From assembly GCA_036936605.1 (NCBI GenBank), contig JAUPFV010000004.1, positions 182,980,807 to 183,044,806 of the forward strand: DNA of 64,000 bases, read 5' to 3'. The notes below the pieces were generated by a model. It ran no database searches, was not told where the DNA came from, and saw only the letters and a list, made by a program, of their open reading frames with translations. This DNA comes from Limnanthes douglasii subsp. nivea (lineage: Eukaryota > Streptophyta > Magnoliopsida > Brassicales > Limnanthaceae). Shown here in pieces: positions 26,989 through 60,099 of this stretch (the first letter of the stretch is position 1; every line of letters begins with the position of its first letter). Position numbers and translations under genes: made by a program.

Positions 26989-26989
26989 C

Positions 26990-34937: not shown

Positions 34938-37072
34938 TTCAGCCATTTTATTATTGTAATTATATCTTCAAGAATGAAGAAGTATTTCGTAACATTCTTT
35001 GGCCACCTATTGATCACTTTCAACCACCCCAAAATGATCCCCAATGACATACTTAAAACATTGATGAACAGTAGAAACTACAACATACATTCTTGATAGC
35101 CAAGATCTCCCGTCGATATTATTATAGCTAGTTGCACATTCGACCACCAATAATGTATGCCCCTATCAAAATACGTCCAATTTCAACCCCAACAATGTAT
35201 GCCCTATAACCACTACATCTTCATGAGGTCCTAGTATTCCCCAAAGATCATCATCGTCGAATAAGATAAAAGATGTATCCATTTTCCATATAAATTAGTG
35301 GACATTTTACCTTCTATTTGGGTAGCTAAACTTACTACATATATTTTTCTGGAGCTGTTAGTATTACCAACCATGGTATCTCCCCCCAAAATTACTAGGG
35401 ATTCAATAAATTCACACAAACTTCGAACCAGTCCTTGAACCGGCGGCTCATCCACAGCTAACAAAATTAACTGATCCGGGTCTGCATCTAAATACTCTGT
35501 TGTCGCATAAAAGTTATCGCATTTTGAATAAAGAATCATCAATGAACTATCTTGGTTCGAATTTTCATTAACATTCTGTGGTGTTGCCGTGCTCAAATAT
35601 TTTGACCTACTGTTTGGTTTTTTAACAAAAGGTATTAACTTGCCATTCTTTATCAAAATTTGTATTTCTTTTTTTAACGCTATACATTCTAGAGGGCCAT
35701 GCCCAATGTGATTGTGATACTTATAAAACCTATTATTATGTTCTTCGTTTGGTATATATACTGGAGATAGCTTTCTAAAGTTCACATGACCTATAGAATT
35801 CTCAAATATAGCAGTTACATTCTCAGTTAGCTCTGAGAAATATTTCGGCCTTATCCCGAGGAGGTAGATTAATATTACTCCTCGGAAAATTTGGTTCTTG
35901 AGAATTTGAAGCGTGTACTTTGCTTTTTTTGCCCAGTAAATGCATGTCCAATTTTTTTTGGAGTACTATTGAACTACCTCGAACCATAGTGGACTCTTCA
36001 ACTTTAATTTTCTCCTCAACTTGAGTCATCAAAGCTCCAAATGTCAACCCTCTTCTTCTAGTAGTCTTATTTGCTGTATCCTCTGGAAGTAATCTTTTCT
36101 AAAATCTGCCATAGTGACAAGTTATTCACAATCCTCCAACTCTGTTTTCGTGAATATAAACCGTCTAGTATAGTCTTTTTAACTTTTCCCCAATTTGTTT
36201 GCATGGTATAATTGTGTCGTCATTGGCTCGTATTTTCTTACTCCCTACAAATTATTTTTGAAATGTTGTATGCAAAATTCTAAAATTGGTAATAGATCCC
36301 ATTGGAATCCTGTTATACCACTTCAAAGCAATACCCTAAAACATTTGCGACAACGATCTACAAACCATCCTATCATCATCATCATCATCATATAATTCAT
36401 CATATAATTCTTGAACTGTTCAATATGGTCATCGAGATCTTGTATTCCGTCCAACTTCTCTACTTTTGAAATATCAAAACGTCTTTAAAGTGGTATTGAC
36501 CTGATATCAACAGATAAAGAAGCATTTCTCCAATCTACTCATTGCATATATTGATTATCTCCTTTAGTTCCCATTATTACGTACACGTTTCGATCCACGG
36601 TGTTAAAGTATTGATTAGTCATATTCCCCTCATAAAAGAAATTGTCCCTTACATGTTGAGGCTTACTTTCCTTCTTTAATTTATATTCTTTATCTAAATT
36701 TCGATGCCAACTTCGTTACCCTTCGAAGAATTTTGGTACCTTCTTTGTCTAAACAAATGACCCTCAGACTTCGAGCTAGAAAAGTCGTTATCACTAGATG
36801 AAATATATTGTTATTTATCATTTTATCTTTTTGCGAAGAAAGTTATTCCATGTCTGACTGAAAGTTTGATGTTTTATGATCACTTCGAATTCGATGAGCT
36901 GTATAGGATTCATCAGATTGATTTTCCAACTCATTTTTTCCTCAATTGGTCGTACTTCGGATTTCAATATACTAGACTGAATTTGTTGCTCTCTTCGAAC
37001 GTATTCCTCATTTAAAACAGTTATTTTTTGTAATAGCTGATTCATTCTGTCTTCAAATGTCATATTAATCAT
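34938..37072 (-). pseudogene. gag: E3 gag-protease, protease active site deleted
   Basis: The gag N-terminus is near 37072 (MTFEDRMNQLLQKI, like E4). The gag domain is at about 36090-36480. The knuckle-like segment is at 35690-35740 (FYKYHNHIGHGPLEC). The protease tail is at 35090-35130 (GRSWLSRMYVVVSTVHQC). Between GPHEDVVVIG and that tail the DTGSS catalytic segment is missing, replaced by a short repeat of GHTLL-like sequence at about 35150-35215. Confidence 0.8.
36371..36391. repeat. (ATC)n microsatellite in E3 gag
   Basis: About seven ATC repeats, falling where the Asp-rich DDDD run of the gag domain is encoded on the other strand. Confidence 0.8.
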
Positions 37073-37258
37073 ATTGCTCAGGATCCTGACTATTACCTCG
37101 ACCTTCTTCCTTGTGTAAATCTGACTTAAATTGCTTCAATTGCTTCACGAACTGCTGGATCAGCTCTTGTCTCTTATGGTTCCATTAGAAGCAATACAAT
37201 TAACTATTAATTTTATCTTTTCTGGTTTTATATGCGCTATCTAGGTACCTTAATTTCT

Positions 37259-37276
37259 CTCCCACCCTAGTCGCCA
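37259..37276 (-). other. E3 primer-binding site
   Basis: Minus strand TGGCGACTAGGGTGGGAG, beginning with TGGCGACT as expected for pairing with a tRNA-Arg 3' end. It lies next to the 5' LTR. Confidence 0.75.
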
Positions 37277-37277
37277 C

Positions 37278-37600
37278 TGTTAAGTGTTAGAGATATCCTT
37301 ATGAATAAATTAAATTAAATTTGTTCTTATGGAAAATAAAGTGAAAGTATCGAGAGAGAACTAAATTTCTAGAGAGAAAAAAACAACAAAGCAGAATCTA
37401 TTTCAAGAAGTAAAAAATCAAACCCTTTATTCATTGTCTCCTTCCTTAATTATAAGTATGCAAGATGACTTTAACTGAATCGGTTACATAAAGAGATAAA
37501 TTATAGTGTGGTCCTTTATATTTATAAATAACACAAATCTCATCTCATGGCTTTGAAATTCATATAAAACAACCTTAATGTTCTTGTCTCAAGCCAGTGA
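37278..37600 (-). repeat. E3 5' LTR
   Basis: Starts TGTTAAGTGTTAGAG. The inner part matches 27142-27485. The right edge is set where E2 LTR sequence (ATAAATGTCTTCAAAAT) resumes. Confidence 0.8.
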
Positions 37601-41765: not shown

Positions 41766-42125
41766 TGATGAGTTAATATTTCGCCTTAGTAAATTGTTAA
41801 GAGAGAAATCTAGAGAGAGAAAGAGTTAGAGAGTTTTTAGAGAGAGAAAGTTCAAGTACAAATGAGTTCCAGAGAAAAAGTATTCAACCCCTTTATTAAG
41901 TTAGCCTTGCCTTTTATATAGAGGAGCCAATACTTAGCCTTAGAGTGAAATATGTTACAAAAGAGGATAAATTGCTATTTCGTCTGCAATAATTACACAT
42001 AATCACAAATGTTCTCTAACACTTATATTACATGTAATTTAAGGACTAAACTTACATTATTTACAGTTTAACCCTTAAATTTATATTATTTACAATTTAA
42101 TCCTCAAAATCCTACTTCTATATCA
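41766..42125 (-). repeat. E4 3' LTR
   Basis: 360 bp, TGATGAG...TATCA, followed by the polypurine tract. Confidence 0.96.
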
Positions 42126-42140
42126 GAAGCCCTCCTAGTT
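42126..42140 (-). other. E4 polypurine tract
   Basis: Minus strand AACTAGGAGGGCTTC next to the 3' LTR. It is less purine-rich than in E1 or E5. Confidence 0.75.
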
Positions 42141-42646
42141 CTCATGTCAGTAAATCAATGAGAACTAAAATATCTTCGAATTCTTCCATATTCCATGTCA
42201 GTTGTTGCAAAATAAACTCGAACCAATCATTCGAAGCAACCACTAGAAACAACCATTCAAAGCGACCACATAAAGCAATAATTCAAAGCGACCACATGAA
42301 GCAACCATTCGAACCGGTGTCAAAAAATTCATACCAATTAAAAGTGACTAAAACTTGAGAAATTCCTAAGGCCAATAAGCCTCCACGGAACCCTATGGAA
42401 ATAAAACGCCTCGAATCATTGTGGAAGTTAAACTTTTAAAAACCTTCAAAATGTACTCCTCGAATTTTATCCAAACAATATACAAAAGTAACAGTTTCGT
42501 ATAGCCTTTCGAATCCATCATTACTTTATAACTATTAACCCATAGATAGATACCTAGCCTGACAGATGTCAAGCTTTTAGTCCTCCCAGCGCTTTGTGTT
42601 CTACCCTATGACTAGTCCTTTAATCTTCACATGTCTCCTCTTCTTT

Positions 42647-42656
42647 CTATAAATTC
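42647..42656 (+). promoter_or_regulatory. E4 antisense-gene TATA box
   Basis: CTATAAATTC, identical over ten bases to the E5 antisense TATA region (48241-48250). It lies 175 bp before the ATG at 42823. Confidence 0.65.
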
Positions 42657-42822
42657 AATCATTAGCCTCATTTTTTTATTCTCATAACACAAATCATTTC
42701 AGAGAAAACTCAAAGCACTTGGCTACCTTCATCGTGTTGCTCCTTTTTCCCAGTATATACATCAGAAAAAACCAAACTTTTTGGTCAACCTTCATCTTCT
42801 TTGATCAACCTTCATCTGGTTT

Positions 42823-45717
42823 ATGAGAAATAAACCGAGAACCAGAAAATCTAAAGCTAACATACCCAAGAAATTAGAATCTCTAGAACCTGACAACAAC
42901 TTAGTCTTTGGATCATATGACTACTTCTGCATTACCCAAAAAGCAGAGGAATATAGAGCTGCAGGATTAATCAATAGCTCTCCTGTTGGAATAACCACCA
43001 AAACAACCTATTACGGTAATTTGGATCCAACTAAAGCTCATGCTATCCCTCCTTCTCCTTTATTCGAAGAACATTCCTCATCCAAAATCCAAAGTCCTAA
43101 AACACCTGGAGCCTCTTAATCTCAAATTAATATTTCTCCTTTTATTAGTGAATGATCTCCTTTAAAACAAAAATAAAAAATTCCCTCTTCGAATCATTCT
43201 TCAATAACCAGAAGAAGAAGAAGAACTTTTATTGCCATGGGAGACGAATCAGAAATTATCCCAACTTCTTCCCCTTCGAATCCAGTTACTGAAGCTACTC
43301 CTCAGAGAGAAGTAACTGAGGAAGTTCCTCGAACAAATAACCCTTTATCAGAAGCTGTTAATCCAACACCTCAACAACCTCGAGAAGAAAGATCGAATGC
43401 CAACGAAGCTGAATCTGAGGCTACCAGAACCGTTCTCGAAGCTGAATCCGATGATGGGAAATCAGTAACTACCCATAAGCCTCATGAAGCAAAAGACACT
43501 TGCTTTATTTCCGAAGAAAAAAGAGCTATAATTGGCAGCAACTTAAGGAGTCTTGAAGCTAAGTATATCATTGCTCTGAAAAAGGTTCGATATATTTATT
43601 AAAATGATAGTCAAGCTTCAGATCTAAAAAAACAATGGGGAATGAGAGATAATATAACTCTTCGACTGCTTAAAGAAGGAGAAACTCCCTTAAAATGGAA
43701 CGATGACGAGCTAGTAGTCTACCCCGAAATCATCAATTGGGGTCTTCGGTTTCCACTAGATCATATGATCATGGAATACTTCGAACTCCTTAACTTGTGC
43801 CTTACTCAGGTGACACCGAATCAATGGTTTACCCTAGTCAATGATTGTGACATCTCGACTATCTCAGATTCCCATCAGCATTAAGGATTTCATCTCCTTA
43901 ATTCAACTGTTGAAATGTCTGAACTCCCTTTTTACTACCTCACCCTGGTAAATGTCATCGACGACCTCTTAGAAGCTAACAAATTCTGGAAGCAAATATT
44001 CATTTTAATATGAGGAGCATGGGAGAATGGTAAAGAAATTTCTGATGCCAATCGTTCAAAGCTACATCTCATCTAGAGAAGCAAACGTAAGCACTTCGAA
44101 ATTTTCACATTCTGAAATATTTTATTTTTTTTCCTTCCTCTTTCTTTAAATTCCTACCTAAATGATTATTTCAGAAATTTTGAGTCGTTATTCAGCGCGT
44201 CAACCAACTGCTAAGGACATTTTCCAAAAAGTTTCTGTTTGGGCTGAAAAAGAATGGAATAATGCGTTCCATACTGCTTTCCAGCCCATCAACTTCCGCA
44301 ACTGCCACATGTTCCCAATCTCAAAAGGTGCATTGCCACCTCGAAATTCGATGTTAGAGCCTAATCCGAAGATAGTCTGCAAAAGGTTAATTGATCCTGA
44401 TTGTAAACTCTTTCTTTCTATTCGCAACAGATTAGAAAGTCATTTACCAAAAAAGAAGAAAGAAAAAGTTATCAAAGAAAAGAAAGATAAAAAGATAGCT
44501 AACACATCTGGTGCCAGCCTCAACTCCATCAAAGCCAAAGCCTCGAAAAAGAAAAAATGCTGAGCAGGCTCTCTCACCCATCAAAGAGGGAAAAGATCAA
44601 GAACCATCTTCAAAGAAAACGAAAGCTTCTTCCAGTTCTCATAGAAAGAAAAGGAAACAGGCGAGAATCACTTCATATACACTAGTCGATGAAGATGAAA
44701 ACACTGTTGAAAACCAACAAAACCAACAAAACCCTTTGGTTGAAGAACAAACAACCAAAGAGAACATTGTGATCATCATCGAAGATAGTGCTACTAATGA
44801 AAATTAGGCTGCTGAAAACTTCGATCCTGATATGTTCATTAATTTTGAGAACACTGAAGCACAAACTGGTGAAGATGATCATGTTCTTCAAGTCATCCAA
44901 AATCATATGCTTAACTTTGGAAGACCAACACCTGCCGAGGCGTCTCCAGAAATTATCTGTCCTCCTGCTCTCATCACCACTTTAGATATGATTAAACGTC
45001 CTAGCTCATCAGAAACATAATTGACGCTTGCCCCTTCAAATCCTGCAATCGTTGTTGCACTTCAACCATTTAACGATCTTGATATTGCAGCAAAAGCACT
45101 TGCTTCCCAAGTCGAAGCTTCTCAAAACCATCTAAATCAATTGGCTAAAGATATGGTCTATTACAAAGAGTCTTACGAAGCTGATAAAAAATTTAGAGAT
45201 AACTTGCACAGCAAAATGGTTGATCAATTTCACATGTACGAAGTGGCAAGGTCCGAACTCATAAAAGGTGCTCTTTGCATGAAGAATCATCTACGAATCA
45301 CATACATAGTTGAGACAGAATCGCTGACGAATTCTCATGAAAAGGAAATAAATAAGCTCAAGACTGATTATGCTACTGAACTGGCCACCGACTCTTACTC
45401 TTTGTGAGAAAAAAAATAAAGAACTGATCGAGGAGATAGCTAAATTGAAGAAAGATTTCGAAGTGGAAAAAACTGTTGTTGTTGCTGCTGCTGAAACTGA
45501 ACTTTCAAAAGACATGGTAGCTGCTATTAACACCGGAAAAGAAGAAACAGCCATTCTCCTTCTTCGAGAACTTCATGCCACTTATCCAAAAATCGACCTC
45601 ATAAGTTTTTGGAACAATATTCCTGAGGAGAAACGCCCAAGTGAAGCTTTCGATCCTATTCATGATTCATCATCCTCAGAAGAAGAATCGTCCAAAGTGG
45701 AAGAGTTGTCTGATTAA
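42823..45717 (+). pseudogene. E4 antisense accessory gene, lightly to moderately broken
   Basis: The N-terminus is basic (MRNKPRTRKSKANIPKK), followed by a conserved YDYFCITQKAEEYRAAG block. Then come a Ser/Pro/Glu-rich linker (43090-43500), the gypsy-type transposon domain (43545-43960: LEAKYIIALKKVRY, WGMRDNITLRLLKEGETPLK, NWGLRFPLDHMIMEYFELL), and an intron at 44087-44174. Exon 2 encodes ILSRYSARQPTAKDIFQKVS, lysine-rich nuclear-signal-like runs (44450-44670), acidic stretches, a charged helical region (45080-45560) and an acidic Ser-rich end. Breaks are stops near 43118, 43153 and 43600, shifts near 43835 and 44520, stops at 44805 and 45018, and a shift near 45400. Confidence 0.85.
44087..44174 (+). 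other. E4 antisense-gene intron (88 bp)
   Basis: Donor GTAAGC, a T-rich tract, a CCTAAAT branch-like motif and acceptor TTATTTCAG. It is in phase 1, splicing C to AA before ATT-TTG-AGT. Same position and phase as in E3 and E5. Confidence 0.85.
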
Positions 45718-46264
45718 CTTTATCATTTTTTTGTGTTTGTTAGATTAAAAAATTTCTTTTTGTACTTCCAAAGTATTAATCTAATCGACGAACGGTTTCC
45801 TTGTTTTTATATTCTTTTCACATATTATTCGACACCTAAATTTTAAAAAAGGCATGACTCAAATACTTCAAATTTTTAACATATAATTATAAATTGTAAA
45901 CTTAACACCTCAAATACCTTTAAAAATCAAATTGATGAACATGGTGGCTCTTTAGAAATTCTCAATGTGCTGTTAAGTTGTCACTTCGAAAAAATATATT
46001 ATATAGTTATTAAACATGATTGTTTCTTCAAAAAGTGTTATAAACACTTCGGAACATTCTACTCTTAACCAACCTCAAAGATGATCAGTCTATGATGATT
46101 TGTTAAGATAGTATTCAAACATATGTAAACAACCATTGGCCAAAAACAAACTTTATTGATAATATTGAATATGTACACGACGCCTCGTTAAAACCTTACT
46201 GGGCCAACAAGATAAGAAAGAGTGCGTCACTCAAAAGTAATAATTCCAAAGTACAAAAACATAT
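45718..46264. other. E4 convergent zone
   Basis: AT-rich space between the antisense gene and pol. No tandem array is present, unlike E2 and E3, but AACACCTCAAATAC at about 45904 resembles the E3 repeat unit. Confidence 0.5.
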
Positions 46265-47409
46265 CTACTCCCAATAAAGCTTCATGTGTTGTATATTCCA
46301 TGGGTGCTGAAGCATCCTCCTCTTGAAATAAAAAAGACGATAGGACCCCGACTTTATCCTTTCAGCAATCACATAAGGCCCTTCCCAGTTCAGAGCCATT
46401 TTTCTGAGGTTCTTCTCCTTTGTGTGCAAGAATACTTTTCTCAACATCTTATCACCTTCTTTAAAATATCTTCTCTTCACCTTCGAATCATATCTATTTC
46501 TCAAAAGAGTTTGATAGTGAATTACATTCAAATAAGCTCGAACTCTTTTTTCCTCAATCATATCCAAATTCTCTCTTCGAACTTCATCATTAGTCCTTTC
46601 AGAATATTGGGTTATTCTAAAAGACGACATCGTAAATTCTACGGGCCTGACTACGTCCATTCCATATGCTAAAGCAAAATGAGTCTCCTTTGTTTCCTCT
46701 TTAGGAGTTGTCTGATAAGCCTAAAGTACCTCTTGTAAATAGTTTGGCGATTTTCCTGCTGCCCCCATCAAATTCTTCTTCAAGCCATCTAAAATTGTTC
46801 TATTTGTTACTTCCACTTGCCTATTAGCTTGAGGATGAAAAGACGTTGAAAAGCATTGTTGAATTCATTTGAAGTGTAAAATGAAGCCATCTCCTTGTTA
46901 TTAAACTGAGGGCCATTATCTGTTATAATCCTCCGAGGAACTCCAAAACGACAACAGATGCTTGTTGTTCACAATAAATTTGAGCATATCTATTGTTTTT
47001 GTCCTTGATAATGGTTCTGCCTCTGCCCACTTTGTAAAATAATCCACTGCTACAATTATCATATGTCTTCCTCCATACGCCATTGGGAAAGGTCCCGCCA
47101 GATCAATCCCCCATCTATCAAATGGTACCGCCTCAGTTATAGACATAAACGGTACTGATGGTATGTGAATAGCATTAGCAAATCTCTAACAAGTATCACA
47201 ACTTCTAACTAAATTCTTAGCATCATTCATGATTGTAGGCCAATAAAACCCTGCAAGTAAAAATCGACGTGAAAGATCTTTGAACCCACAATGAGCTAAC
47301 CTCTCACCATCATGCAATTCTGATAATACTTCTTGTGATTGTTGCTTACTTAAACATCGTAACAATGGCCCGCTCAATGCCTTTTTATATAATATTCCAT
47401 CCAGTACTA
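46265..47409 (-). pseudogene. pol: E4 pol, integrase part (left of E5)
   Basis: The HHCC finger is at about 47190-47340 (LHDGERLAHCGFKDLSRRF ... RSCDTC). The core first Asp is in FDRWGIDLAGPFP (about 47120), then TDNGPQF near 46915, and Glu in NRQVEVTNRTI near 46815. The C-terminus ends RMLQHPWNIQHMKLYWE at 46265. There is a one-base shift near 46960 and a stop near 46722. The catalytic residues survive. The N-terminal side continues at 57925 after E5. Confidence 0.88.
47405..47409. repeat. E5 target-site duplication, left (TACTA)
   Basis: Identical to 57920-57924. Both lie in E4 pol codons between RNase H and integrase (YIVLDGILYKK). Confidence 0.97.
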
Positions 47410-47911
47410 TGGTGTGGATAATAATCGCCTGAGGGTAGGCTAGTAATTTTAAGTGGAGTTTCAAGGTGGTATATGGGTGTTTAACGGTGGTGTGAGGGTG
47501 TTTAACGGTGGTGTGAGGGTGTTTAACGGTGGTGTGAGGATGTTTAACGGTGGAGAGATAATTAAGCAGCTTGGCAGCAGTTAATTTTTCTTACCCATAA
47601 TTAATGCTGGTGGTTGGGTATTTATAGTATGATGTTTGGGCCCTTACGGGCTTTCGGGTCATGTTTAATGGACCCGGGTCACGTTTAAAGACCCATGAGT
47701 TCCAAGCAGGAGGGCAGGTAGCTTAGTCAGGAAGTGTTTAGGTTTTTTAGTACTTTAGTCATAGTTCGAACAGCCTTAAGTTTACAGTGTTCGAAGTGAT
47801 CTGTCCGGTCCGAATGATCTGTCCGATTTATATGCCTGTAGCCCGTCCGGTATTCGTAGAGACTTAGGTTGATTTGTCCTTCTGGGGAGCATGCTGAATT
47901 CGGACTCACCA
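47410..47911 (-). repeat. E5 3' LTR (502 bp)
   Basis: TGGTGTGG...ACTCACCA. Near its outer end it contains four short GTGTTTAACGGTGGTGTGAGG-like repeats (about 47485-47560), shared with the other LTR. Confidence 0.98.
47485..47560. repeat. About 24-bp tandem repeat inside the E5 LTR
   Basis: Three to four near-identical units containing GTTTAACGGTGGTGTGAGG. The copy in the 5' LTR is at about 57486-57560. Confidence 0.9.
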
Positions 47912-47930
47912 GGAGCCCCTTTTTTAGATG
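47912..47930 (-). other. E5 polypurine tract
   Basis: Minus strand CATCTAAAAAAGGGGCTCC immediately before the 3' LTR. Confidence 0.92.
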
Positions 47931-48067
47931 TTTGAACAAGTGTCCTTGTCAAAGAACTGAAAAACAGTCTGATTGAATGAAGTGGTTCTTAATCCGGACA
48001 GACTTGTGGGTATACTCGGACAGGTTAAACGTTACGAATTCCAAACGGGTTTTGCCAGATTTAGTGG

Positions 48068-48247
48068 GACACGTGTCGCATTTTGATTGGCCATTCCAGC
48101 CGTTTTTTCACCTTGAATTTCGCATAATCTTCTTTTACAAGTAACCTCTTTAATTGCCAATTATGACATCAGCACCGTCTTTTAATCATTACCCAACTTT
48201 TCGGATTCTCATAGGAATCAACTCCTTTTTTTCACATTTACTATAAA
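48068..48247 (+). promoter_or_regulatory. E5 antisense-gene promoter: G-box and TATA box
   Basis: GACACGTGTC with G-box CACGTG at 48070, an inverted CCAAT (ATTGG) at about 48085, and TATAAA at 48242. A CT-rich leader (TTTTCACTATCTCTCTC) follows. G-box to TATA is 172 bp and TATA to ATG 108 bp, both exactly as in E1. G-boxes are bound by plant bZIP and bHLH factors. Activity is not shown. Confidence 0.75.
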
Positions 48248-48349
48248 TTCTCAGTCATTTTTCATTGTTTTCACTATCTCTCTCAAATTTACTCTGCAAT
48301 TTCACCCAGAGCTTTATCTCTCTGGAACAAAAACTTCCTTGGCTTATTT

Positions 48350-51262
48350 ATGTTTACAGCAAGAACAGCATTGATCAAAGGCGGTTGGCTCAACCTTTCG
48401 GAGTTGGAGAAAGCACAAAGGGTCGAGAAGGAGAAACGGCTAGCAGCAGGGCTACCATCGTCTCCTATCGAGAAACCAGCCTCCTCTGTTGCAGAATCTG
48501 ATAGAGGCTCATCTTCTTCAAAAGGTACCAAGCCCAGAAAGCTCTTCCAATCCACCCTTTCTCCCATAGTATCTGGTTCATCGGTTCAGGAGTCAATACC
48601 TGTTGTTGAACCAGGAGTTACCGCTACAAGTGTTAGGAAAAAATCATCTTTCATTGCCATGGGGTCTGATTCTGACCACTCTCCGGATAAATTAGTCATC
48701 AAGAGGCCAAGCCGGTTAGTCAAGGGGATAAATTCCAAAAATACTCCCTCAAAATCGGGGACAAAGAATAGTGACTCTGGGTCTGGAGTGCCCTTTAGAG
48801 CTCCCCGGGAGAGGCTGTCCGGTCCGGAGGCCAGCAGCCCGGCACCCCCCAAAGAATCTTCTGCCTCAGAAACTCAACTCGAGGTGAGAAGTCAGATAAA
48901 TACGGGCAGGCAACAGTCCGGAGGGCAGGCTATGCCAAGCACTAATCCTCCCCGAACCACTTCCACAGAAGTCCCTCCAACAATTATGGAGGAGAGAATG
49001 GAGGACTCTACTGAAGAGGTCCCCTTTGAGTTCGAGTCCTCTGGACAGGCTGATACCACTCCTGCTGTTGCAAAAAAAGGGAAGGAAAATTTGTATCTGA
49101 GGCGCCCGGACCTGCCGGAGTGCCTTGAAGGAAGAGTGGGGCCGTGCTTCCACAAAGTTGAGTTCAAGTACCTCTTGGCCTTGCAGAAGACCAAGTATGC
49201 ATTTATCCATACCTCTGGAGACCCCGATGGACTGTAAAAGGAATGAAATAGTCTTCTTTACGGAGCTATTTAACTGGGGACTCAGGTTCCCACTAGACCC
49301 GGAGATCGTGCACTACTTCCACCTGGTCAAACTCTGCCCATCACAGCTAAGCCCCAATGGTTGGTTTACCTTGATGTCATGCATTATGGCATCCAGATTA
49401 TCAGGGATCCCTCTTCCTATGGAAGAGTTTGCTGCAATGGCCAACCTGTGCAAGCACCATCAGTTCCCCTTCTAACATTTCAACATGGGGAACGATCTCA
49501 AAGCTGTTGATGATCTCCTGGAGTCGGAGAGCAAATGGAGGAGCCAATTCTTGTTTGTCAGTGGCTCATGGGAAAACGGCAAGAAAATCAAGGTCGGAGA
49601 GAATCCAAGCCTTCTCAGGAGTTGGTGGAGGAGTGATCGTAAGTTTTTTTTTACTTCAAGTTTCTGTTCGAATTTCTCTTTTCTTTATTGTACTAACCAA
49701 TTTCTCTTTTGTTTTAACAGAGCTGCCAAAGGAGTTCGGGGACTACCTGAAGGCCGGACAGACTACCTGTGGCAAGATCAATGCATGGGCTGCAGAGAAC
49801 TGGGAGAACCGATTCCATAAGGCCTTCACCACTGGAAACCTAGCAAGGTCCCACCTGTGGAACACAACAGGTCGGAGAGACCTAACCTGGGAGGAGCTCG
49901 CCACCCAGCCTGATGAAGACATTGTGTTGAGAAGGTCCCACGAGCTGGATGGGACACTGTATCTTCTTGCTCGGGCCAAAGCCCCAAGAAAAATGAAGGG
50001 CAGAAGAAGAGGCAAGAAGGTGGCAGGTGATACTGAGAAGGAGGCCCCAACAGATCCAGAGGGGCCAACACAAGTTCAAATTGATGCAGCCCTTTTACAA
50101 GTGGTGGAGCAGGAGAGCGAGAAGCAGGAAGTGAACCTCCCAAAACCTCCAAGGGCATCCAAGAGGACTCGCAAGCAAGCAAGTGAAAGTGCTGATAGGG
50201 AAGCCAAGAAGAAAAAGACTTCCCAAGGGGATGAGCTTGCTCTCCGGGACCCGGAGCCCTCTTTCCCTACTGACCCGACACTGGCCGAAGAGATCCCAGG
50301 GGATTTTCAAGAAGAGATTCCAAGAGAATTCCATACTGATGAGGTTGAGGGGGAGAGCTTAATTTGGATGAAGTAGACATCACCGGTCTGGGTGGACTTG
50401 GTGAATATTTCCTTGGCCTGCCCAGAGACGAGTTTGCAGGGCCCTACATCCCTCCGAGCAGCTCTAATACGGTCAATTTTAATGGTAAGACTTTCATGGT
50501 TTCTAGTGAGAAGGACACTATAGCCCACTCTCTACTTAGCAATGTGCATCTAGTTCTCACATTGGAGAGGCAAGTCCGGATTCAAGCAGACACTATCAAA
50601 GACCTCAAGTCTGATAAGGAAAAGCTGTCCGGAGACCTCCGCACTGCCACCACCAATGTTGACTTGCTTAAGGAAGCAAACGAGGAGTTGAAGAAGAAGC
50701 AAAATGAAAGCAACACAAAAGTTGCCACCTTAGAAGAAACCATAAAAGACCTTCAGGATAAGTTGTCCGGACTGGAGAAGGACCTGACAACCTCAAGGGG
50801 AGAAACTGCAGCAAAGGAGAAGCTCATCACCAACCTGACCACTGACAAGATCGCATTAGAAAATACAGTGACTCGGGCTGCTGAAGAGAAGGCTGCTTTG
50901 GTGAGGGACCAAGAGGCCACAATCAAGGCTAAGATCAACGCCTATGCCAGGGAGATGATACAAAGCGAGGAGCTAATGATTCAAAGGGTGAAGTCTGATA
51001 TGGTTCTCCTGTTTCACGAAAAATTCCCGAAGAGGAGACTGGGAGCTTATAGCGCTATGTGGATGATGATGACCTTCCATATTATACTATGGTTGACGAG
51101 GGATATTCCAGTGAGTCCTCGTCTGATAATGAAGAGGAAACCGGAGAGAGCCCAGGCGAAGAAGAGATTGATCCCAAGGGCAAGAAAATAGTCGAAGAGA
51201 GGAGCGACATCAAGGGCGAGAAAACAGATGAGGGCGAGCCATCTTCGAAGGCTCAACCTTAA
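48350..51262 (+). pseudogene. E5 antisense accessory gene (gypsy-type transposon domain, coiled coil)
   Basis: Exon 1 is 48350-49638 and exon 2 is 49721-51262. In order: MFTARTALIKGGWLNLSELE, a Ser/Pro-rich region, the conserved domain (49090-49460: RPDLPECLEGRVGPCFHKVE; NWGLRFPLDPEIVHYFHLV; LSPNGWFTLMSCIMASRLSG), then LPKEFGDYLKAGQTTCGKIN after the intron. A basic stretch (50155-50225, KRTRK and KKKKT) could direct nuclear import. A coiled coil of about 140 residues (50560-50970) and an acidic tail with DDDD and SSESSSDNEEE finish it. Breaks are a deletion of roughly 66-75 bp at about 49216 relative to E1, TAA at 49473, a one-base shift near 50355 and another near 51055. Family function is unknown. 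Confidence 0.88.
49639..49720 (+). other. E5 antisense-gene intron (82 bp), consensus splice signals
   Basis: Donor GTAAGT at 49639, branch site TACTAAC at 49691-49697, T-rich tract, acceptor TTTTAACAG ending at 49720. Phase 1: C plus AG makes CAG, then CTG CCA AAG. Spliced or not, reading resumes in the exon-2 frame shared with E1. E1-E4 have an intron at the same codon. Confidence 0.92.
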
Positions 51263-51723
51263 TTTATAATTTATTTTTTTTATCTTTCATTCAAACTAAA
51301 GTCCTTGGAAGGCCAAGGCACTCTTTTTGTGATGGTGTCCGTATTATTCGGACAGATTTTTTGTGTTGTACCCAAACTTGTTCAAAAAGTCCTTGGAAGG
51401 CCAAGGCAATTTTAAGTTGTTGAATGAATGTTTTTATTTTGCTCAACCATCCTCTTCTTTCATTATTTGTTTTAGTTTAGATAGCTGGAATTTAAGTAGC
51501 TCGATTGTATTGTGAGAGTATTAAGACTCTTTGGCTAGAATTTAAATAGCCCTTAGATCTTTTAGTCCGGGTAGTATGATAAGAGATAAAATTTTGAAAA
51601 TACTTAGAAAATTTTGAAGAATGCACCAAATTTCATTGAAAGCTCTCCGTGCCACCGAAGAGGGGAAGGTATGCCCCCAAATATTTACATGGATGTTTAA
51701 ACAAGTAAATATTTACACAAGTG
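51263..51723. repeat. E5 convergent zone with hairpins
   Basis: CCTTGGAAGGCCAAGG occurs at 51303 and again at 51391 (88 bp apart), each a 6-bp inverted repeat. GTCCG-7 nt-CGGAC lies between at 51338-51354. Positions and motifs match those of E1 (6875-6968). The rest is AT-rich and non-coding. Confidence 0.8.
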
Positions 51724-54700
51724 TTATTCCAAGTACATTCGAAGGTGTTCAATATTCCAAGGGTGAGTTAAGACCCTGCCATCTTTGTCTTCCAACCAAT
51801 AAGTCCCAGGCTTGATTCTTTCAACCACAGTATACAGACCCTCCCAAGTTGGGGCCAGCTTTCCGAAGAGCTTTTCTTTAGTATGCAAGAAGACCTTCCT
51901 TAATACTTTATCTCCTGGTTGGAAATCTCTCCTTTTAACTTTAGAAGCAAACCTGCTTCTCATCAAGCCCTGATAGTGTGCAATTCTAAGACGAGCTTTA
52001 ACCCGCCTTTCTTCGATCAAATCAAGCTGATTTCTAATTGCCATCTCATTAGCGTGTCCGGAGAAGTTATGAACACAAAAGGATGGGAGTGTCTTCTCTA
52101 TGGGAGCTACTGCATCCATTCCATAGACCAAAGCAAAGGGGGATTCTTGTGTTGTAGCCCCAGGTGTTGTCCGGTAGGCCCATAAGACCTCTTGTAGATA
52201 ACTAGGCCACTTCCCAGCAGCCCCTTCCAAATTTTTCTTTAACCCGGACAGTATAGTTCTATTAGCCACTTCAACCTGCCCATTGGCTTGTGGGTGGAAA
52301 GGTGAAGAAAAGCAGTGCTGTATACCCCTTGAAGCACAAAAGCTTTCCATTTCTCTATTGTCAAACTGTGGCCCATTGTCTGTTGTTATCCTCTGTGGGA
52401 CACCAAATCTGCAACATATGTTGGACAGAATAAATTTTATGACAGCTTTTGATGTTGTCCCTGCCAGGTGGGCTGCTTCTATCCACTTCGAGAAGTAGTC
52501 AATGGCCACAATTATAGTTTTACGCCCTCCGGACGCCACAGGGAGAGGCCCAACCAAGTCCAATCCCCATCGAGCAAAAGGGATGGGCTCAGAAATTGAC
52601 TCCAAGGGAATGGCTGGTACATGAATTTCATTGTTGTACCTCTGACATGGGTCACACCTTTTTACCAGCTCCTTGGCATCTTTCATGATTGATGGCCAAT
52701 AGTATCCGGAGAGTAACACTCTTCTTGTTAAAGCTCTGAATCCACAATGGGCTGATCCCTCACCATCATGCAATTCGGAGAGGACCATCTGTGACTCATT
52801 ATCCCCTAAACAGCGTATGAGAGGTTTACTATAGGATTTTTTGTACAACACTTCTCTCAACATAATGAAACCACGAGCCTTGTGTTTCAATGTTCTGGCT
52901 TGTGACTTATCTGAGGGTATAATACCATTGGACAGATATTGTATGAGAGGAGACCTCCAGTCTTGAGGCCGGCTCACTTGTATTTCAAAAATCTCCTCTT
53001 TTCCACCCTCACTGAGTTGAATAGAAGGGCTTTCAAGCACATGGATCCATGGGTAGGACTCCGTATATGCTATTGTTGCCAATGAGTCTGCTAGCTCATT
53101 TTCTGCCCGGGGAATATGCTCATAGATAACAGCTTTAAACTTTAACGCTTCATTTTTTAGGAGGAGTAAATATTTTACCAACTGCTCCTTTCTAGCCTCA
53201 GATTGGCCTAAGGCATGGTGGACAAGTAACTGGGAGTCACTCAGAAGCTTGACCCTTTTAGCCCCCACAGATGTGGGCCAATTTCAACCCGGCTATAGCT
53301 GCTTCGTATTCAGACTCGGTTATTAGACGCCCTGAAAGCAAAACAAATAGCCTGGTCCATGCTATCCCCATATGGGGAAGTGAGATATATTCCGGCCCCA
53401 CATCCCATGGTGCTAGACCCTCCGTCTGTTCGGACAATCCACACTTTCTTGTCTTTTGAATCAGTAGGTTGCTCTGAATCCCTATCGGAGTGGAATTCAA
53501 CCAGAAAATCAGCCACAGCTTGGGCTTTTACTGCTGTTCGGGGGGCAAAGTCTATGTCGAAGTCCCCCAACTCCACTGACCACTTCGTCATTCTGCTTGA
53601 AATATCTGCCTTTTGAAGGACATTCTTTAAAGGGAAAGAGGTCCGGATGACGATAGGATGAGCCTGGAAGTAAGGCCTCATTTTTCTTGCAGCTATTACC
53701 AGAGCTAATGCCAGTTTTTCGAGTTTCAAGTAACGCTTCTCAGCATCAATCAAGCTTTTGCTGATGTAGTACACTGGGTATGGACAACTATCAACCTCCC
53801 TTACCAACACAGCACTGAGGGCACAACTTGAAACGGCCAGATACACAATAAGAGTCTCCCCATCAACTGGTTTGAACAAAGTTTTAGGAGAGGAGAGATG
53901 TTTCTTGATTTTATTGAATGCCTCACCCCACTGTGGGGTCCATTCAAACCCCTTGGCCCCGTTCAAAGTTTGAAAGAATGGAGCACACCTGTCCGAAGAC
54001 CTGGAGATGAACCTGTTCAAAGTAGCCAATCTCCCCGTTAATCGTTGTACTTCTCTAATATTTCGAGGAGGCTCCATTTGGAATAAGGCATTGAGTTGGT
54101 CCGGGTCAGGCTGTATTCCATGTTCACTGATGATATACCCTAAGAACTTCCCGGACTGTATTCCGAACACACACTTTTCGGGGTTTAGTTTTAAATTCAC
54201 TTTTGCCAAGTTGGCAAAAGTTTCTTGGAGATCGGACAAGTGCAGCTGCTCATCCACGCTTTTCACCATCATATCGTCAATGTAAACCTCCATATTTCTT
54301 CCAATTTGACCAGCAAATGCCTTGTTGACTAATCTTTGATAAGTAGCCCCAGCATTTTTCAAGCCAAAAGGCATCGCCTTGTAGCAATGTAGACCCCTAT
54401 TAGTGACAAACGTGGTATGTTCTTGATCTTTTGGATCTACTTGGATCTGATTGTACCCGGAGAAGGCATCCATGAAGGAGAGCAGTTTGTTCCCCGAAGT
54501 AGAGTCTACTAGCTGATCTATCCGGGGGACCGGATACAAATCTTTTGGGCAAGCTCTATTAAGATCTGTGAAGTCAATGCACATGCGCCACTTGCCATTT
54601 TTCTTCTTCACCATGACAGGATTTGCAGTCCACAAGGGGTACTGAGATTCTTTAATATGCCCCATCTTTGTGAGTCTGTCAACCTCTTGTACTATGACAT

Positions 54701-55013
54701 CAGCCTTTTCTTTCGAGAAAGCTCTTCTCTTTTGAACCACTGGTGCCACATCTCTTCGGACAGATAGGTGATGGGATATCACCTCTGATGGAACTCCAGT
54801 AACATCAGCATTGCACCAAGCAAAAACGTGCTGATGGTCTTTCAAAAATTTCAACATCTCTTGTTTCAATATTGGCGGCATCTTCGACCCTATCTTGACA
54901 CTTTTGCCTTCTTCCAAACAATGTGTTTCAACCTCTTCAATTGGGATCAACACTCCGGGGGTCTCCCTGGGGTCATCAATCTCACCCTCACCCCCAGAAA
55001 GGCCCTCAAACTT
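51724..55013 (-). pseudogene. pol: E5 pol: RT, RNase H, archaeal-type RNase H, integrase (two frameshifts)
   Basis: Reads in frame from the gag-pro stop. RT at about 54120-54690 has FMDAFSGYNQI and the YIDD catalytic box (Y codon at 54282-54284). The gypsy RNase H is at about 53500-53880. A second, archaeal-type RNase H spans about 53040-53460 (VRTDGGSS; NNESEYEAAIAGLKL; LLSDSQLLVHH; NELADSLA), a hallmark of Tat elements. The integrase has an HHCC finger (LHDGEGSAHCGF, then CDPC at about 52640) and the DDE residues in WGLDLVGP, TTDNGPQF and GQVEVANRT. It ends WNIEHLRMYLE at 51724. One-base insertions near 53319 and 53265 break the frame inside the second RNase H. Confidence 0.95.
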
Positions 55014-55016
55014 CTA
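55014..55016 (-). promoter_or_regulatory. E5 gag-pro/pol stop codon (TAG AAG TTT)
   Basis: A TAG between RINEQ and KFEGLSGGEGEIDDP, with the same frame open on both sides. It is homologous to the stops at 10313, 24697 and 34935. Here the next codon is AAG rather than CAA. Confidence 0.75.
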
Positions 55017-57344
55017 TTGTTCATTTATTCGGACTGCCCCCACCGTTCGTGGAGCCAAGGCAGTGGCATAGCATTCTCTTGCAACCTTTTGGCTGCTCCG
55101 GACAACCCCAACCTGTCCCTGAACAGCATACTTTAAACACTGATGGACTGTTGAAGCCACTGCATGCATCCTAGAGAGCCAAGATCTCCCTAGAATAGCA
55201 TTATAGCAAGTGGGACAATCCACCACGATGAAGAGTATTCTAACCATTTTCTTGAAAGGGCCCCTGCCCAATAACACTTCTTCTTCAAACTCCCCGATCA
55301 CATCGGCTGAGCTGCCCGTAAAACCCACGATCGATCTGTCTGACTTCTGAATCACAACTGGATTTTTCATTTTCTTGTAAGTGGTTAGGAAAAGGATATT
55401 GGCAGAGCTTCCAGTATCCACCAGAATTTGCCTTACCTCATTTCCCCCTATAGATGCTCCTATGACAACAGCATCCTCATGAGGGCCAGCAATATCTCTC
55501 AAATCATCCTCATCGAAAACTATGAATGGGAATGAGTTTGGTGATTGATAAGATGTCATGCCTCCTTCTAGTTGGGAGGCTAAATTATGAACATGCCTCT
55601 TTCTCGAAGAAGCAGTAGGAGCAGTCATAGTGTCCCCTCCGAATATTGTAAGTGACTCGAAGAATTTAATGAGCCCGAGGACAGACCTAGAACACTCCTC
55701 TATAGCACCCACCCTGTTTCGTGTTGGATCAGGATCCAAGTACTCAGATTCCACATCAAACCTTTCCACGATTACCATGGCCCCCTCCGGGGCAGCATTA
55801 CTCGGACCAACCCGGTGAGTGTTGTCAGGCCTGTTGCCTCCTCTTCTTTTAACGTATGCACCCAACTTTCCCCTTTCTATCAAGTTTTGTACCTCTTGTT
55901 TCAACGCTATGCAGTCATCAGTGGTATGGCCAATATCATTGTGGTATTGGCAAAAGGAGTTGTTACGATGCTCTCTGGGAGACTGCAAGGTTGCTGGTCT
56001 CCGGTAGTGTACCTCATCTTTTGTTTTATCAAAAATGGTGGCCACGCTTTCTTTGAGTTCTGCGAACCACTCCGGTTGGACCCATGGCCCTCTTTTGTTT
56101 CTAGATTGTTGACTTTGAGCAGGAGCAGCTGGTTGAGACTGAGCTTTTGCCCTACCATGCCCCTGTCCGACTTCTCTTGCTTTGTTCCCGGACTGGTTTT
56201 GATTTGGAGTTGGCGCCACCGGGGTCGATCTCACCTGTCTGTGTACCCTGGTCATTTTTGTTTCATCAACGTTTATTTGCTTGCCAACTTGATTTAGCAA
56301 CCCTCCCCAGGTCATGGCCTTCTTTCTGGTCACCGAATCAGCCAGGTTGCCTGGGTTCAAGCCTTGTCTTAGGGACGTTATTGCCACTTGTTCGAAGCAA
56401 TCAGCCAACCCATTCTTTGTGTTCACAAAACGACTTATGTACTCCTTCAATGACTCATTTGGCTCCTGGGCACAATGGATTATTGTGTCTCCATTGCCCT
56501 TCAGCTCCTTACTCCCCACAAACTGCCTTCGAAAGGCTACCCAAAATGTATCAAAATCTTTAATACAACCCTGAGGCAGGCTGTTGTACCATTTCAGAGC
56601 ACTCCCCGTAAAGGATTGGGAGAATGCCCTACAAAGTAGTTTATCATCATCATCAAAGTTCATCATGAATTTTTTGAATTGCTCCAGATGATTGTCCGGA
56701 TCAGTACTGCCATCGTACTTCTCCATCTTGGTGTTGTCAAACCTCTTAGGGAGGTTCCTAGACAGAATCTTATAAGATAATGGAGATTGCCTCCAGTTTC
56801 TTCAACGACTGAACACAGTATCCTCATTGGGAGTTGCAAAGATACCTGGTTCATCGTGAAAAGCGAAAGGATCCATCAGCATCCGGTCCACATGCCTCCG
56901 GCTATGAGATGATCCTTTACCAATATGCTTCTTTATCTTTCCATGTCTATCCCTTTTTCTTGAATATTTTTTTATCTGCTTTTGCTTCTCCTTGGTTCGA
57001 GCCTCATCACTGTTAGAGGACAAGGATTTTTCATTTCCCTCACTGTCCGAAGATTCTGAACTTGAGTCAGAGCTCTCCACAGGCTTGGACCGGTGAGACT
57101 TTTTAGAACTAACATGTGTCTTTTTGGTACTCACACGAGTTTTCGAAGCCTCAGGCTCTCTAGGGTTGTCGGTGTGATGAACAACCGATGCCTTGGATTT
57201 TTCTTTCACGCCCATTTTGGCCTTTTCAGCCCTCAGAGCTTCTATCTCAAGCTTTAACCTGTCACGCTCTTGGACAGTATACTCATCGTTTTCTTCCACC
57301 ACTTCGAGCAAAGCTGGTGGAAGCTCTGGGTTATCCGGATTCAT
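55017..57344 (-). pseudogene. gag: E5 gag-protease, one internal stop
   Basis: Start taken at MNPDNPELPPALL (ATG 57342-57344), which aligns with the E1 start. A longer frame would need a GTG at 57389. It would be about 776 codons. The N-terminal 180 residues are Ser/Lys-rich. The capsid-like gag domain is at residues about 190-370 (MEKYDGSTDPDNHLEQF; SALKWYNSLPQG). A CQYHNDIGHTTDDC knuckle-like motif is at about 465-478. The aspartic protease has VDTGSS at about 642-647 and GRSWLSRMHAVAS near the end. The only break is a TGA at 56802-56804, where E1 has Gly. The product would be particle protein plus protease. Confidence 0.94.
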
Positions 57345-57395
57345 TCTGACAGAATTTCTTGGCAGGTTTTGAATGCTTGATTCAGGCACCTTTCT

Positions 57396-57414
57396 CCTCC
57401 CACTGTGGTCGTCA
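57396..57414 (-). other. E5 primer-binding site
   Basis: Minus strand TGACGACCACAGTGGGAGG, three bases from the 5' LTR. It is like the tRNA-Arg sites of this lineage but with A at position 3 where tRNA CCA pairing needs G. Confidence 0.8.
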
Positions 57415-57417
57415 ATT

Positions 57418-57919
57418 TGGTGTGGATAATAATCGCTTGAGGGTAGGCTAGTAATTTTAAGTGGAGTTTCAAGGTGGTATATGGGTGTTTAACGGTGGTG
57501 TGAGGGTGTTTAACGGTGGTGTGAGGGTGTTTAAAGGTGGTGTGAGGATGTTTAACGGTAGAGAGATAATTAAGCAGCTTGGCAGCAGTTAATTTTTCTT
57601 ACCCATAATTAATGCTGGTGGTTGGGTATTTATAATATGATGTTTGGGCCCTTATGGGCTTTCGGGTCATGTTTAATGGACCCGGGTCACGTTTAAAGAC
57701 CCATGAGTTCCAAGCAGGAGGGCAGGTAGCTTAGTCAGGAAGTGTTTAGGTTTTTTAGTACTTTAGTCATAGTTCGAACAGCCTTAAGTTTACAATGTTC
57801 GAAGTGATCTGTCCGGTCCGAATGATCTGTCCGATTTATATGCTTGTAGCCCGTCCGGTATTCGGAGAGACTTAGGTTGATTTGTCCTTCCGGGGAGCAT
57901 GCTGAATTCGGACTCACCA
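57418..57919 (-). repeat. E5 5' LTR (502 bp) with promoter TATA
   Basis: Nine differences from 47410-47911 by eye. The sense promoter TATA (TATAAATA on the minus strand) is at 57627-57634. Confidence 0.97.
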
Positions 57920-57924
57920 TACTA
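57920..57924. repeat. E5 target-site duplication, right (TACTA)
   Basis: Identical to 47405-47409. Confidence 0.97.
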
Positions 57925-58635
57925 TATATCTGAAGGCTTTACTTCTTAATTTTTTGGCCAATCATGAATCATCTGGTAGTATTCCTTGATTCAAGAAATT
58001 AAGGATATCTGATAGCCAATCACCTCGAATTTTATCTGACGTAACAAAAAATTCCTTTATATATCCACATTGGCTAGATTGAGTATCAATTGAAGGATTT
58101 TCTTGTAACAAAATCCAATGATATTCTTCCTTGTAAGCGACATTTGCCAAAGAATTAGCAACCATGTTACTCCCTCACCCAATATATTCCACAACAACAT
58201 TTTCAAACAACAACATTAAATTCTGAAGTTCCTGAAGATGCAAAATCAAACGATCCTTTCTCGCTTCGAAAAACCCTGATACCTGATTTGCTAACAATTG
58301 AGAATCTGTTTCCAAGCGCACTTGACGTTGCCCCACAAATATTTGCTAATCTTAAACCTGCCAAAGCAGCTTCGTATTCAGCTTCATTGTTTGAAGCATG
58401 AAAGCCAAATTTAATAGATTGAATCATTATCTCTCCCGTTGGAGCTATTTACTAGACCCCATCAGTGCACCCTGAAACACTAGATCCTCCATATATTCGG
58501 ACAACCTACCTCGAATCATTTGGTATGGCTTCTTACTTGCTTCCTCATCTGATTGGCTTGAATGGAATTCAACAAAAAAATATGTCAATGCTTGCGCCTT
58601 TATTTATGTTCGAAGTGAAGTCGCCATTATACTCT
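57925..58635 (-). pseudogene. pol: E4 pol, RNase H part (right of E5)
   Basis: Contains the end of the gypsy RNase H (VEFHSSQSDEEASKK, about 58550-58585) and the archaeal-type RNase H (FGFHASNNEAEYEAALAGLR near 58400; ETDSQLLANQ; NMVANSLANVAY at 58165). The linker follows into the E5 insertion point (LAKKLRSKAFRYIV). RT and protease are absent; sequence passes directly into gag at about 58621-58640. Confidence 0.88.
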
Positions 58636-59603
58636 TCAAAGTTGTCCAAACTAGCTTTGGTCAAAATAAATCTCTTTGTATAATCCTTCAAATTTTCCCG
58701 AGGTGCCTGCTTGCACTGAATAATGGTATCATCATTTGCTCTAATTTCTTTGCTTCCCACAAACTGCCTTCAAAATGCAATATAAAAATCTCTAAAATTT
58801 AAAATGGACCCCTCGGATACCGATTGTACCACTAAAGAGCCGTTCTCTTAAAAGTCTGTGAAAATGCACGACACACCAGCCGGTCGTCATCTTCGATGTT
58901 CATCATATAATTCTTGAATTGTACGATGTGATCATCAGGATCCTGCATCCCATCGAACTTCTCTACATTCAAAATCTCAAAATGCTTCGGAAGCGTCATG
59001 GAACGACTTTCACTTGTCAACGGAGAATTTCTCCAGTCGATACCTTAAACAAACTGATCATCTGTTCCCGTTGTAACATATGGATATCGATCAGTTTCAG
59101 CATACTGATTCGAAGTGTTTCCTTCGCACCATGTAGAACGAGGAACATTATCCCTTTTAGATTTACTTTTTTTTTATGTTTCCTCAAATGATCTCTGTCT
59201 GATTCCTCTTTCGAATAACCTTTGTATCTCTTAAAACCCGAAGCTGAGCTTTATACCTCCTCGTTACTAAATATCACATATTTCTGCTTATCTTTTTTCC
59301 CTTTACGAGATGAATATTGCTATTTAGGAGACACAAAACGCGCTTTGTTGTACTCAGATTTAGCTCGTCGATCATCCAAGGATCGATCTGACTGACTTCC
59401 CATCTCAGTCTTTTCTGTTTCTTTTCTAATCTTGGATTTAAGCTTCGCATCTCTTGTTCCCTTCGTTCATACTTCTCATTAAAAGAATTTATCTTGTCCA
59501 AAAGTTGGTTCATTCGGACCTCAATATCATATTGAGTTAGGATCAGAGATGATCCACCAAGTCTACTTTCGTCTATCTTCAAATCATCTTTTAGAGTTTC
59601 CAT
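58621..59603 (-). pseudogene. gag: E4 gag, N-terminal half only
   Basis: The N-terminus is at 59274-59603 (YDIEVRMNQLLDKINSFNEK, like E3). The gag domain is at 58640-59020 (VEKFDGMQDPDDHIVQF; DDDRLVCRAFSQTF; KEIRANDDTIIQCKQAPREN). It stops at KASLDNFEE, where the deletion joins RNase H sequence. Stops lie near 58832 and 59274, with a shift between. Confidence 0.85.
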
Positions 59604-59717
59604 CGCTGATCAAAGCGTATGATTGTTCTGAGGATTCATTGTTATTAATTTGAACAGAAAATACAACAAGATTGTATTAAATTCGAACAAAATAAGTCAC
59701 TGATTTTTTCTTATTCA

Positions 59718-59736
59718 GTCCCCAGTGAAGTTGCCA
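59718..59736 (-). other. E4 primer-binding site
   Basis: Minus strand TGGCAACTTCACTGGGGAC, three bases inside the 5' LTR. It is the best match in the window to the tRNA-Arg type site (TGGCGACTCC-CTGGGG as I recall it). Confidence 0.82.
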
Positions 59737-59739
59737 ATT

Positions 59740-60099
59740 TGATGAGTTAATATTTCACCTTAGTAAATTGTTAAGAGAGAAATCTAGAGAGAGAAAGAGT
59801 TAAAGAGTTTTTAGAGAGAGAAAGTTCAAGTACAAATGAGTTCCAGAGAAAAAGTATTCAACCCCTTTATTAGGTTAGACTTGCCCTTTATATAGAGGAG
59901 CCAATACTTAGCCTTAAAGTGAAATCGGTTACAAAAGAGGATAAATTGTTATTTAGTCCTCAATAATTACACATAATCACAAATATTCGTTAAAACTTAT
60001 ATTACATATAATTTAAGGACTAAACTTACATTATTTACAGTTTAACCCTTAAAGTTGTATTATTTACAATTTAATCCTTAAAATCCTACTTCCATATCA
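59740..60099 (-). repeat. E4 5' LTR with promoter TATA
   Basis: 360 bp. TATATAAA on the minus strand at 59887-59894 is the probable sense promoter TATA. Confidence 0.95.

Follow-up and report, generated by a model that had tools for sequence, protein, structure and literature searches.

Open reading frames (ORFs) that lie antisense to gag-pol and encode the TRP28 domain (PF04195) have been published for the Retand lineage of plant long terminal repeat (LTR) retrotransposons (Vicient 2025, PMC11963269; Vicient and Casacuberta 2020, PMC7264820). In maize Grande, gene23 is transcribed antisense from its own upstream promoter and GENE23 localises to the nucleus (PMC7264820), while TRP28 is predicted to bind DNA (PMC11963269). 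The 2020 review calls for a search for antisense and spliced transcripts (PMC7264820), and the word 'intron' is absent from the available text of the 2025 Retand paper (PMC11963269). Spliced antisense accessory genes are found in other LTR retroelements, namely HBZ of human T-cell leukaemia virus type 1 (HTLV-1) and APH-2 of HTLV-2 (PMC3185765), and spliceosomal introns have been reported from the plant LTR retrotransposons Ogre (Tat) and EVADE (Ty1/copia) (PMC6317226, PMC12786077), exceptions among mostly intronless elements (PMC12786077). Here, we describe five Ty3/gypsy elements (E1 to E5) in a single 64,000-nucleotide (nt) window of contig JAUPFV010000004.1 from Limnanthes douglasii subsp. 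nivea, the stretch to which all genome-side results below refer. In every element gag-pol is on the minus strand, and an accessory gene runs antisense to it between pol and the 3' LTR. This gene very probably contains a U2-type spliceosomal intron, retained in these Tat-type (probably Retand) elements through their copying from sense RNA.

The gene is like the TRP28 ORFs of Retand in its pol-to-3' LTR position, its antisense strand, its weakly scoring TRP28 match and its Smc-like or coiled-coil parts, whereas the Retand papers, in their available text, describe ORFs and not exons (PMC11963269, PMC7264820); a preliminary description of this DNA had noted that antisense extra ORFs are known in Tat elements. 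The likeness to HBZ and APH-2 would be one of expression mode only, with no kinship claimed, and HBZ is transcribed from a start within the 3' LTR, where its exon 1 lies (PMC3185765), whereas the putative TATA element described below is internal, outside the LTR. The introns of Ogre and EVADE are reported on the sense strand, unlike the present one, which is antisense and in an accessory gene. A 47-nt spliceosomal intron, removed in vivo, is also present in the antisense homing endonuclease gene of a Didymium squamulosum group I intron, but that is a DNA-homing ribozyme element and not an LTR retroelement (PMC9548176), and in Giardia antisense-gene overlap has been proposed to keep introns, through overlap constraint rather than reverse transcription. 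We found no prior description of this antisense intron in the literature consulted, though earlier work on Tat antisense ORFs, Grande gene23, Retand and Ogre splicing may contain one. Antisense TRP28 ORFs, sense introns and spliced retroviral antisense genes are known; an intron in the antisense TRP28 gene would apparently be new.

The intron boundaries (Table 1) had been proposed in the preliminary description, and our own analysis returned all five coordinate pairs to the base, along with the GTAAGT donor, TACTAAC motif and T-rich AG end of E5, and the terminal changes in E1 and E2. Both GT and AG ends are intact in three of the five copies (E3, E4 and E5). Insertion in phase 1 at one codon, likewise proposed, is seen in all five: the junctions share one column of a protein alignment built from pieces already spliced together at the proposed boundaries (junction codons C/AG, C/AA, A/AA, T/TG and C/CT). 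The introns are 48–60% T and 21–26% GC, compared with 36–51% GC over 600 nt of adjoining exon sequence. Their sequences have diverged, as was also noted earlier: E5 and E1 introns are 57% identical, within the range of shuffled sequences (mean 51%, maximum 66%), with the exon flanks at 69% and 62%. What is conserved is position, ends and T-richness, as in an ordinary intron, since the identity of the intron body falls within the shuffled range while position and ends persist.

Distances were measured from protein anchors on each side, chosen independently of the splice signals, the downstream one being W(A/V)xxxW. The uncut distance between anchors, modulo 3, is 1, 1, 1, 2 and 0 in E5, E4, E3, E1 and E2, so four of the five copies need the stretch removed for the frame to continue; removal restores or keeps the frame in all five, E2 needing none. 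The degenerate intron of E2 is a multiple of three in length and open in frame, and its unspliced frame therefore reads through. E4 has a further, higher-scoring acceptor 21 nt downstream that keeps the frame and may allow alternative splicing. The acceptor stands 65 nt from the downstream anchor in five of five copies, and the donor 61, 61, 58 and 58 nt from the upstream anchor in E5, E1, E4 and E3; the corresponding 25 nt in E2 are counted from a different match, and upstream of the junction E2 lacks 11 residues in the alignment.

GTAA at a common offset in all four copies other than E2 was obtained in none of 20,000 shuffles and none of 10,000 first-order Markov sequences, and YAG at a common offset in four of five copies in 7 of 20,000 and 2 of 10,000, respectively. 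The GTAA test allowed one codon of slack; as motif and slack were picked with the copies in view, and the copies themselves share ancestry, these offset tests are not independent trials. Scored with an approximate plant splice matrix to which a composition term was added, the E5 intron comes top of 89 plus-strand and 169 minus-strand candidates in the gene (36.8); the runner-up (31.2) shares its acceptor, and the best of 300 shuffled exon sequences reaches 20.3. A tblastn search of uncut E5 frames against E1 shows the frame switch, with a sharp exon 2 edge starting at 49726/5318. Match edges obtained with queries trimmed beforehand to the proposed junction are not counted as evidence.

Table 1 Positions in the 64,000-nt window of the five elements, the antisense gene of E5 and E1, its introns and associated motifs.
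Feature	Position	Strand	Description
Element E1	3100..13113	-	LTRs 3100-3413 and 12800-13113, identity 95.2%
Element E2	17374..27107	-	LTR remnants 17374-17481 and 27003-27107, identity 78.7%
Element E3	27144..37593	-	LTRs 27144-27462 and 37280-37593, identity 79.9%
Element E4	41766..60099	-	LTRs 41766-42125 and 59740-60099, identity 94.2%; split by E5
Element E5	47410..57919	-	LTRs 47410-47911 and 57418-57919, identity 98.2%; nested in E4
E1 antisense gene, putative exon 1	3857..5232	+	one frame change plus stops
E1 putative intron	5233..5312	+	80 nt, GTAAAC..GGTAT; acceptor AG lost (ends AT)
E1 antisense gene, putative exon 2	5313..6826	+	single frame to TAA 6824-6826; 5 stops in 503 codons before TAA
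E2 putative intron, degenerate	19442..19504	+	63 nt, GAGCCA..TTTTAG; donor lost (starts GA)
E3 putative intron	29400..29475	+	76 nt, GTAAGT..ATGTAG
E4 putative intron	44087..44174	+	88 nt, GTAAGC..TTTCAG; alternative in-frame acceptor ends at 44195
CACGTG in 14-nt block GTGGGACACGTGTC	48070..48075	+	common to E5 and E1 (3577)
TATAAAT (E5)	48242..48248	+	108 nt upstream of antisense ATG; same 108 nt in E1 (3749)
E5 antisense gene, putative exon 1	48350..49638	+	N-terminal region, then Transposase_28 domain at ~49251-49430
E5 putative intron	49639..49720	+	82 nt, GTAAGT..AACAG, T 55%, GC 26%
E5 TACTAAC, branch-site-like	49691..49697	+	~25 nt from acceptor
E5 antisense gene, putative exon 2	49721..51262	+	LPKEF.., then coiled-coil-like C-terminal part; stop 51260-51262

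The single frame of E1 exon 2 takes in the coiled-coil-like part that forms a second ORF in E5, and TRP28 and this part are therefore most likely to belong to one predicted gene. In E5, exon 1 has a small gap or frame change near 49217–49250 and a stop at 49473–49475, and exon 2 frame changes near 50350 and 51050. Exon 1 of E5 finds its counterparts by tblastn in E2 (1e-12) and E3 (2e-33). Within the window, matches to the antisense gene are confined to the five elements and each is interrupted, one by the degenerate intron; no intronless copy was found there (tblastn with E5, E1, E4 and E3 queries, E <= 1e-3).

Several antisense ORFs per element are what surveys describe (104 across 63 clusters, TRP28 and Smc-like domains being among their products, PMC11963269), using single-ORF criteria (PMC11963269, PMC6317226), and two separate antisense genes, a TRP28 ORF and a coiled-coil ORF set end to end around an unspliced T-rich spacer, would match this practice as well as the stops within the stretch, which in E4, E3 and E1 close at least one of the two frames. 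We consider such an arrangement very unlikely, as the protein alignment spans the stretch at constant distances on either side and picks up again within a codon, in phase 1, the donor and acceptor signals are conserved but the remainder of the stretch is not, and the exon 2 frame of E5 contains no methionine in the first 90 residues past the junction.

Both exons are under purifying selection on the antisense strand in the comparison of E1 and E5. The ratio of nonsynonymous to synonymous proportional differences (pN/pS) in the antisense frame is 0.37 in the N-terminal region, 0.20 in TRP28, 0.32 in exon 2 and 0.38 in the C-terminal part, with pS of 0.70–0.86 along the gene, near saturation; the same comparison gives 0.14 for reverse transcriptase (RT)/RNase H and 0.13 for gag/protease. 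The other two plus-strand frames have pN/pS of 1.10–1.77 and two minus-strand frames 1.0–2.1. For E3 and E4, in which pN/pS was calculated for the antisense frame alone, exon 1 gives ~0.37 and exon 2 ~0.44.

By tblastn the copies form at least three diverged sets (E1/E5, E3/E4 and E2), and as the intron is present in all of them it would, if homologous, have been there before these families diverged. Of 20 splice-site bases, two have changed (in E1 and E2), compared with ~1.1 expected from decay after insertion, taken as half the uncorrected LTR divergence of each copy. The closeness of these values is consistent with splice sites that were intact until insertion and decayed neutrally afterwards. 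An intron by origin only, brought in with a captured gene or DNA element and long unspliced in these lineages, would make the gene a relic, and would fit the broken copies and the single splice site missing from each of E1 and E2. It fits poorly with purifying selection on both exons of E1 and E5 at near-saturated synonymous sites, and with splice-site losses near the post-insertion expectation, and we regard it as very unlikely. Hardly credible is a tract that works in the genomic RNA, as an A-rich sense-strand element (for instance a second priming or RNA signal), and resembles an intron by accident, for although the sense strand is A-rich (T 48–60% on the plus strand), this predicts neither the codon-exact position, nor the GTAA and YAG ends, nor the restoration of frame.

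A number of observations weigh against a spliced antisense TRP28 gene. The five copies are related by descent, and the copies of the gene are broken by stops or frame changes, including that of E5, whose LTRs have diverged by 1.8%. The match to TRP28 (PF04195) is below the Pfam cut-off of 26.2 bits in E5 (E=7.3e-5, 23.4 bits), E1 (E=6.7e-4, 20.3 bits) and E4 (E=0.038, 14.7 bits), and the scan of E3, the fourth copy covered, gave no match. Composition contributes 23.0 of the splice score of 36.8 in E5, so that most of its signal support is compositional, and donor scores in the four GT copies are modest (4.9–6.5 bits). The E3 intron ranks first narrowly (34.0 against 33.6 for the best minus-strand candidate), and in E4 the same donor is top, but the acceptor 21 nt further on wins (35.4 against 32.5). 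A looser test, which accepts any GT..AG that restores the frame and lies no more than 9 nt from the junction, is passed by 30–57% of shuffles and is thus uninformative, and finds no such pair in E1 or E2. In the uncut tblastn comparison of E5 with E1 the exon 1 frame match extends to 49691/5315, blurring that edge. Finally, one minus-strand frame also has a low pN/pS between E5 and E1 (0.36–0.55), which we read as the shadow of shared third positions; this frame has stops in every segment, and the antisense frame 0–3 per copy and segment.

If the antisense intron is genuine, its persistence would follow from the replication logic of LTR retrotransposons, which are copied from the sense RNA. 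Host polymerase would transcribe the antisense gene from integrated DNA, using a putative promoter of its own in the internal region, and splicing would join the TRP28 exon to the exon with the coiled-coil-like tail, for translation of a TRP28/coiled-coil protein. The genomic sense RNA would hold only the complement of the intron, where, as argued in the preliminary description, it could not be spliced; this reasoning is upheld, since the intron reads CT..AC on genomic RNA. It would accordingly be copied whole into new elements, and, the antisense RNA being no template for copying, would survive every round of retrotransposition. The conserved splice signals, purifying selection on the exons and the TATAAAT within an upstream region that is itself partly conserved lead us to infer that antisense transcription and splicing took place in ancestral, active elements.

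As to the role of the protein, our likeliest guess is a nuclear regulator of the element, from the nuclear localisation of Grande GENE23 and the predicted DNA binding of TRP28 (PMC7264820, PMC11963269). A bolder extension, which we offer tentatively and think somewhat less likely to hold than to fail, is that throughout Retand a single old gene, spliced at this codon, has as its two exons the antisense ORFs annotated separately as TRP28 and coiled-coil/Smc, and encodes an HBZ-like nuclear regulator made by established copies only, because the protein would need spliced antisense RNA from integrated DNA and could never come from genomic RNA. TRP28 has been reported in 23% of Retand elements when ORFs of at least 250 codons were required (PMC6317226) and in 97% of clusters of recent elements when short ORFs were counted (PMC11963269), in samples that differ. 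A spliced gene may help explain why the antisense gene appears fragmented in single-ORF surveys. The locus offers a sequence-level reason to think that antisense genes of a widespread group of plant retroelements gave rise to spliced mRNAs. Here nature would provide a clean case of an intron that escapes loss because it is antisense to the RNA being copied. The finding also suggests that the element acquired the gene in DNA form, or that the intron was a later gain, and speaks against arrival as processed mRNA.

The promoter side of the antisense gene is partly conserved. Upstream of and at the ATG (48350 in E5, 3857 in E1) E5 and E1 share 60% identity across an alignment of 472 bases. Four blocks match perfectly, one of 19 nt spanning the ATG, one of 17 nt (AAGTAACCTCTTTAATT) and two of 14 nt, one 14-nt block containing CACGTG, which we take to be a G-box, and the other adjoining the LTR. 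At that identity the longest identical run expected has a median of 10, a 95% value of 15 and a maximum of 23 (2000 trials), so the 14-nt blocks are unremarkable and those of 17 and 19 nt moderately remarkable. Blocks AAGTAACCTCTTTAATT and GTGGGACACGTGTC, both within 47912–48350, are candidate promoter elements of the antisense gene, and the 19-nt block TTTATGTTTACAGCAAGAA (48347–48365 in E5, 3854–3872 in E1) resembles both a start codon and a 3' splice site, the latter likeness, judged by eye, hinting at a possible intron in the 5' UTR. The TATAAAT that E5 and E1 have at equal distance from the ATG occurs in E4 at 42648, ~175 nt ahead of a candidate ATG at 42823; as 5–7% of shuffles contain a TATAAAT in a single such stretch, it is supporting evidence only. 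Just past the antisense stop of E5 the palindrome CCTTGGAAGGCCAAGG occurs twice (51303–51318 and 51391–51406), with equivalents in E1 at 6875–6890 and 6953–6968 (1–2 mismatches). Allowing up to 3 mismatches, the window contains five matches against 0.3 expected, the fifth being unrelated. The palindrome may mark the 3' end of the antisense gene's RNA, or may instead be a sense-strand signal.

Assignment of the elements rests on their domains. E5 has LTR ends TG..CA and a 5-bp target duplication (TACTA, 47405–47409 and 57920–57924), and Pfam identifies gag, RT, RNase H (RH) and integrase (INT), with the protease domain RVP below its cut-off. Downstream of RT_RNaseH, E1 has PF13456 RVT_3 at 49.5 bits (cut-off 21.6), which in E5 falls just under the cut-off at 20.6 bits, the ORF being broken there; we take RVT_3 to be the archaeal-type RNase H (aRH) of Tat elements. 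The pol order, in a Pfam scan that covered E5 and E1, is RH, RVT_3 (E1), integrase on one strand, with integrase placed by Pfam in E5 and by tblastn in E1. On this organisation the elements are of the Tat type. An aRH between RH and INT is reported for Ogre and Retand (Neumann et al. 2019, PMC6317226), and the Retand layout combines this RH-aRH-INT order with a TRP28 gene placed antisense in the pol-to-3' LTR interval (PMC6317226, PMC11963269), by which our elements probably belong to the Retand lineage. Published Retand ranges are 2,933–6,566 bp for the POL-3'LTR region and 315–1,194 bp for the LTR (PMC11963269); E5 falls within both (47912–51723, 3.8 kb; LTR 502 bp), and the 314-bp LTR of E1 is one base below.

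Tandem arrays with 46-bp and 86-bp units occupy part of the pol-3'LTR regions of E2 (21073–21256) and E3 (31237–31643), and arrays in this region are also reported for Retand (PMC11963269). The E5 LTRs carry a 21-bp unit in ~3.7–3.8 copies at 47475–47553 and 57483–57559. Among wider searches for relatives, a junction-spanning protein query gave 1981 candidates, with none at E <= 0.01, and viral contigs searched with RT, a TRP28 alignment and integrase gave no matches. The RT search of genome contigs returned a lone match, 29% identical, in a bacterial metagenome-assembled genome, and that of plasmids three distant records; neither was used. Structure prediction of exon 1 from a four-row alignment (mean predicted local distance difference test score, pLDDT, 49.2) was too poor for a fold search. 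Outside these genes, a Pfam scan of the open frame at 63424–63927 gave no match, a hAT transposase C-terminal dimerisation domain lies at 62525–63238 on the minus strand (52.1 bits, Pfam), and a gag-like fragment is found at 13367–13647, just outside the E1 LTR.

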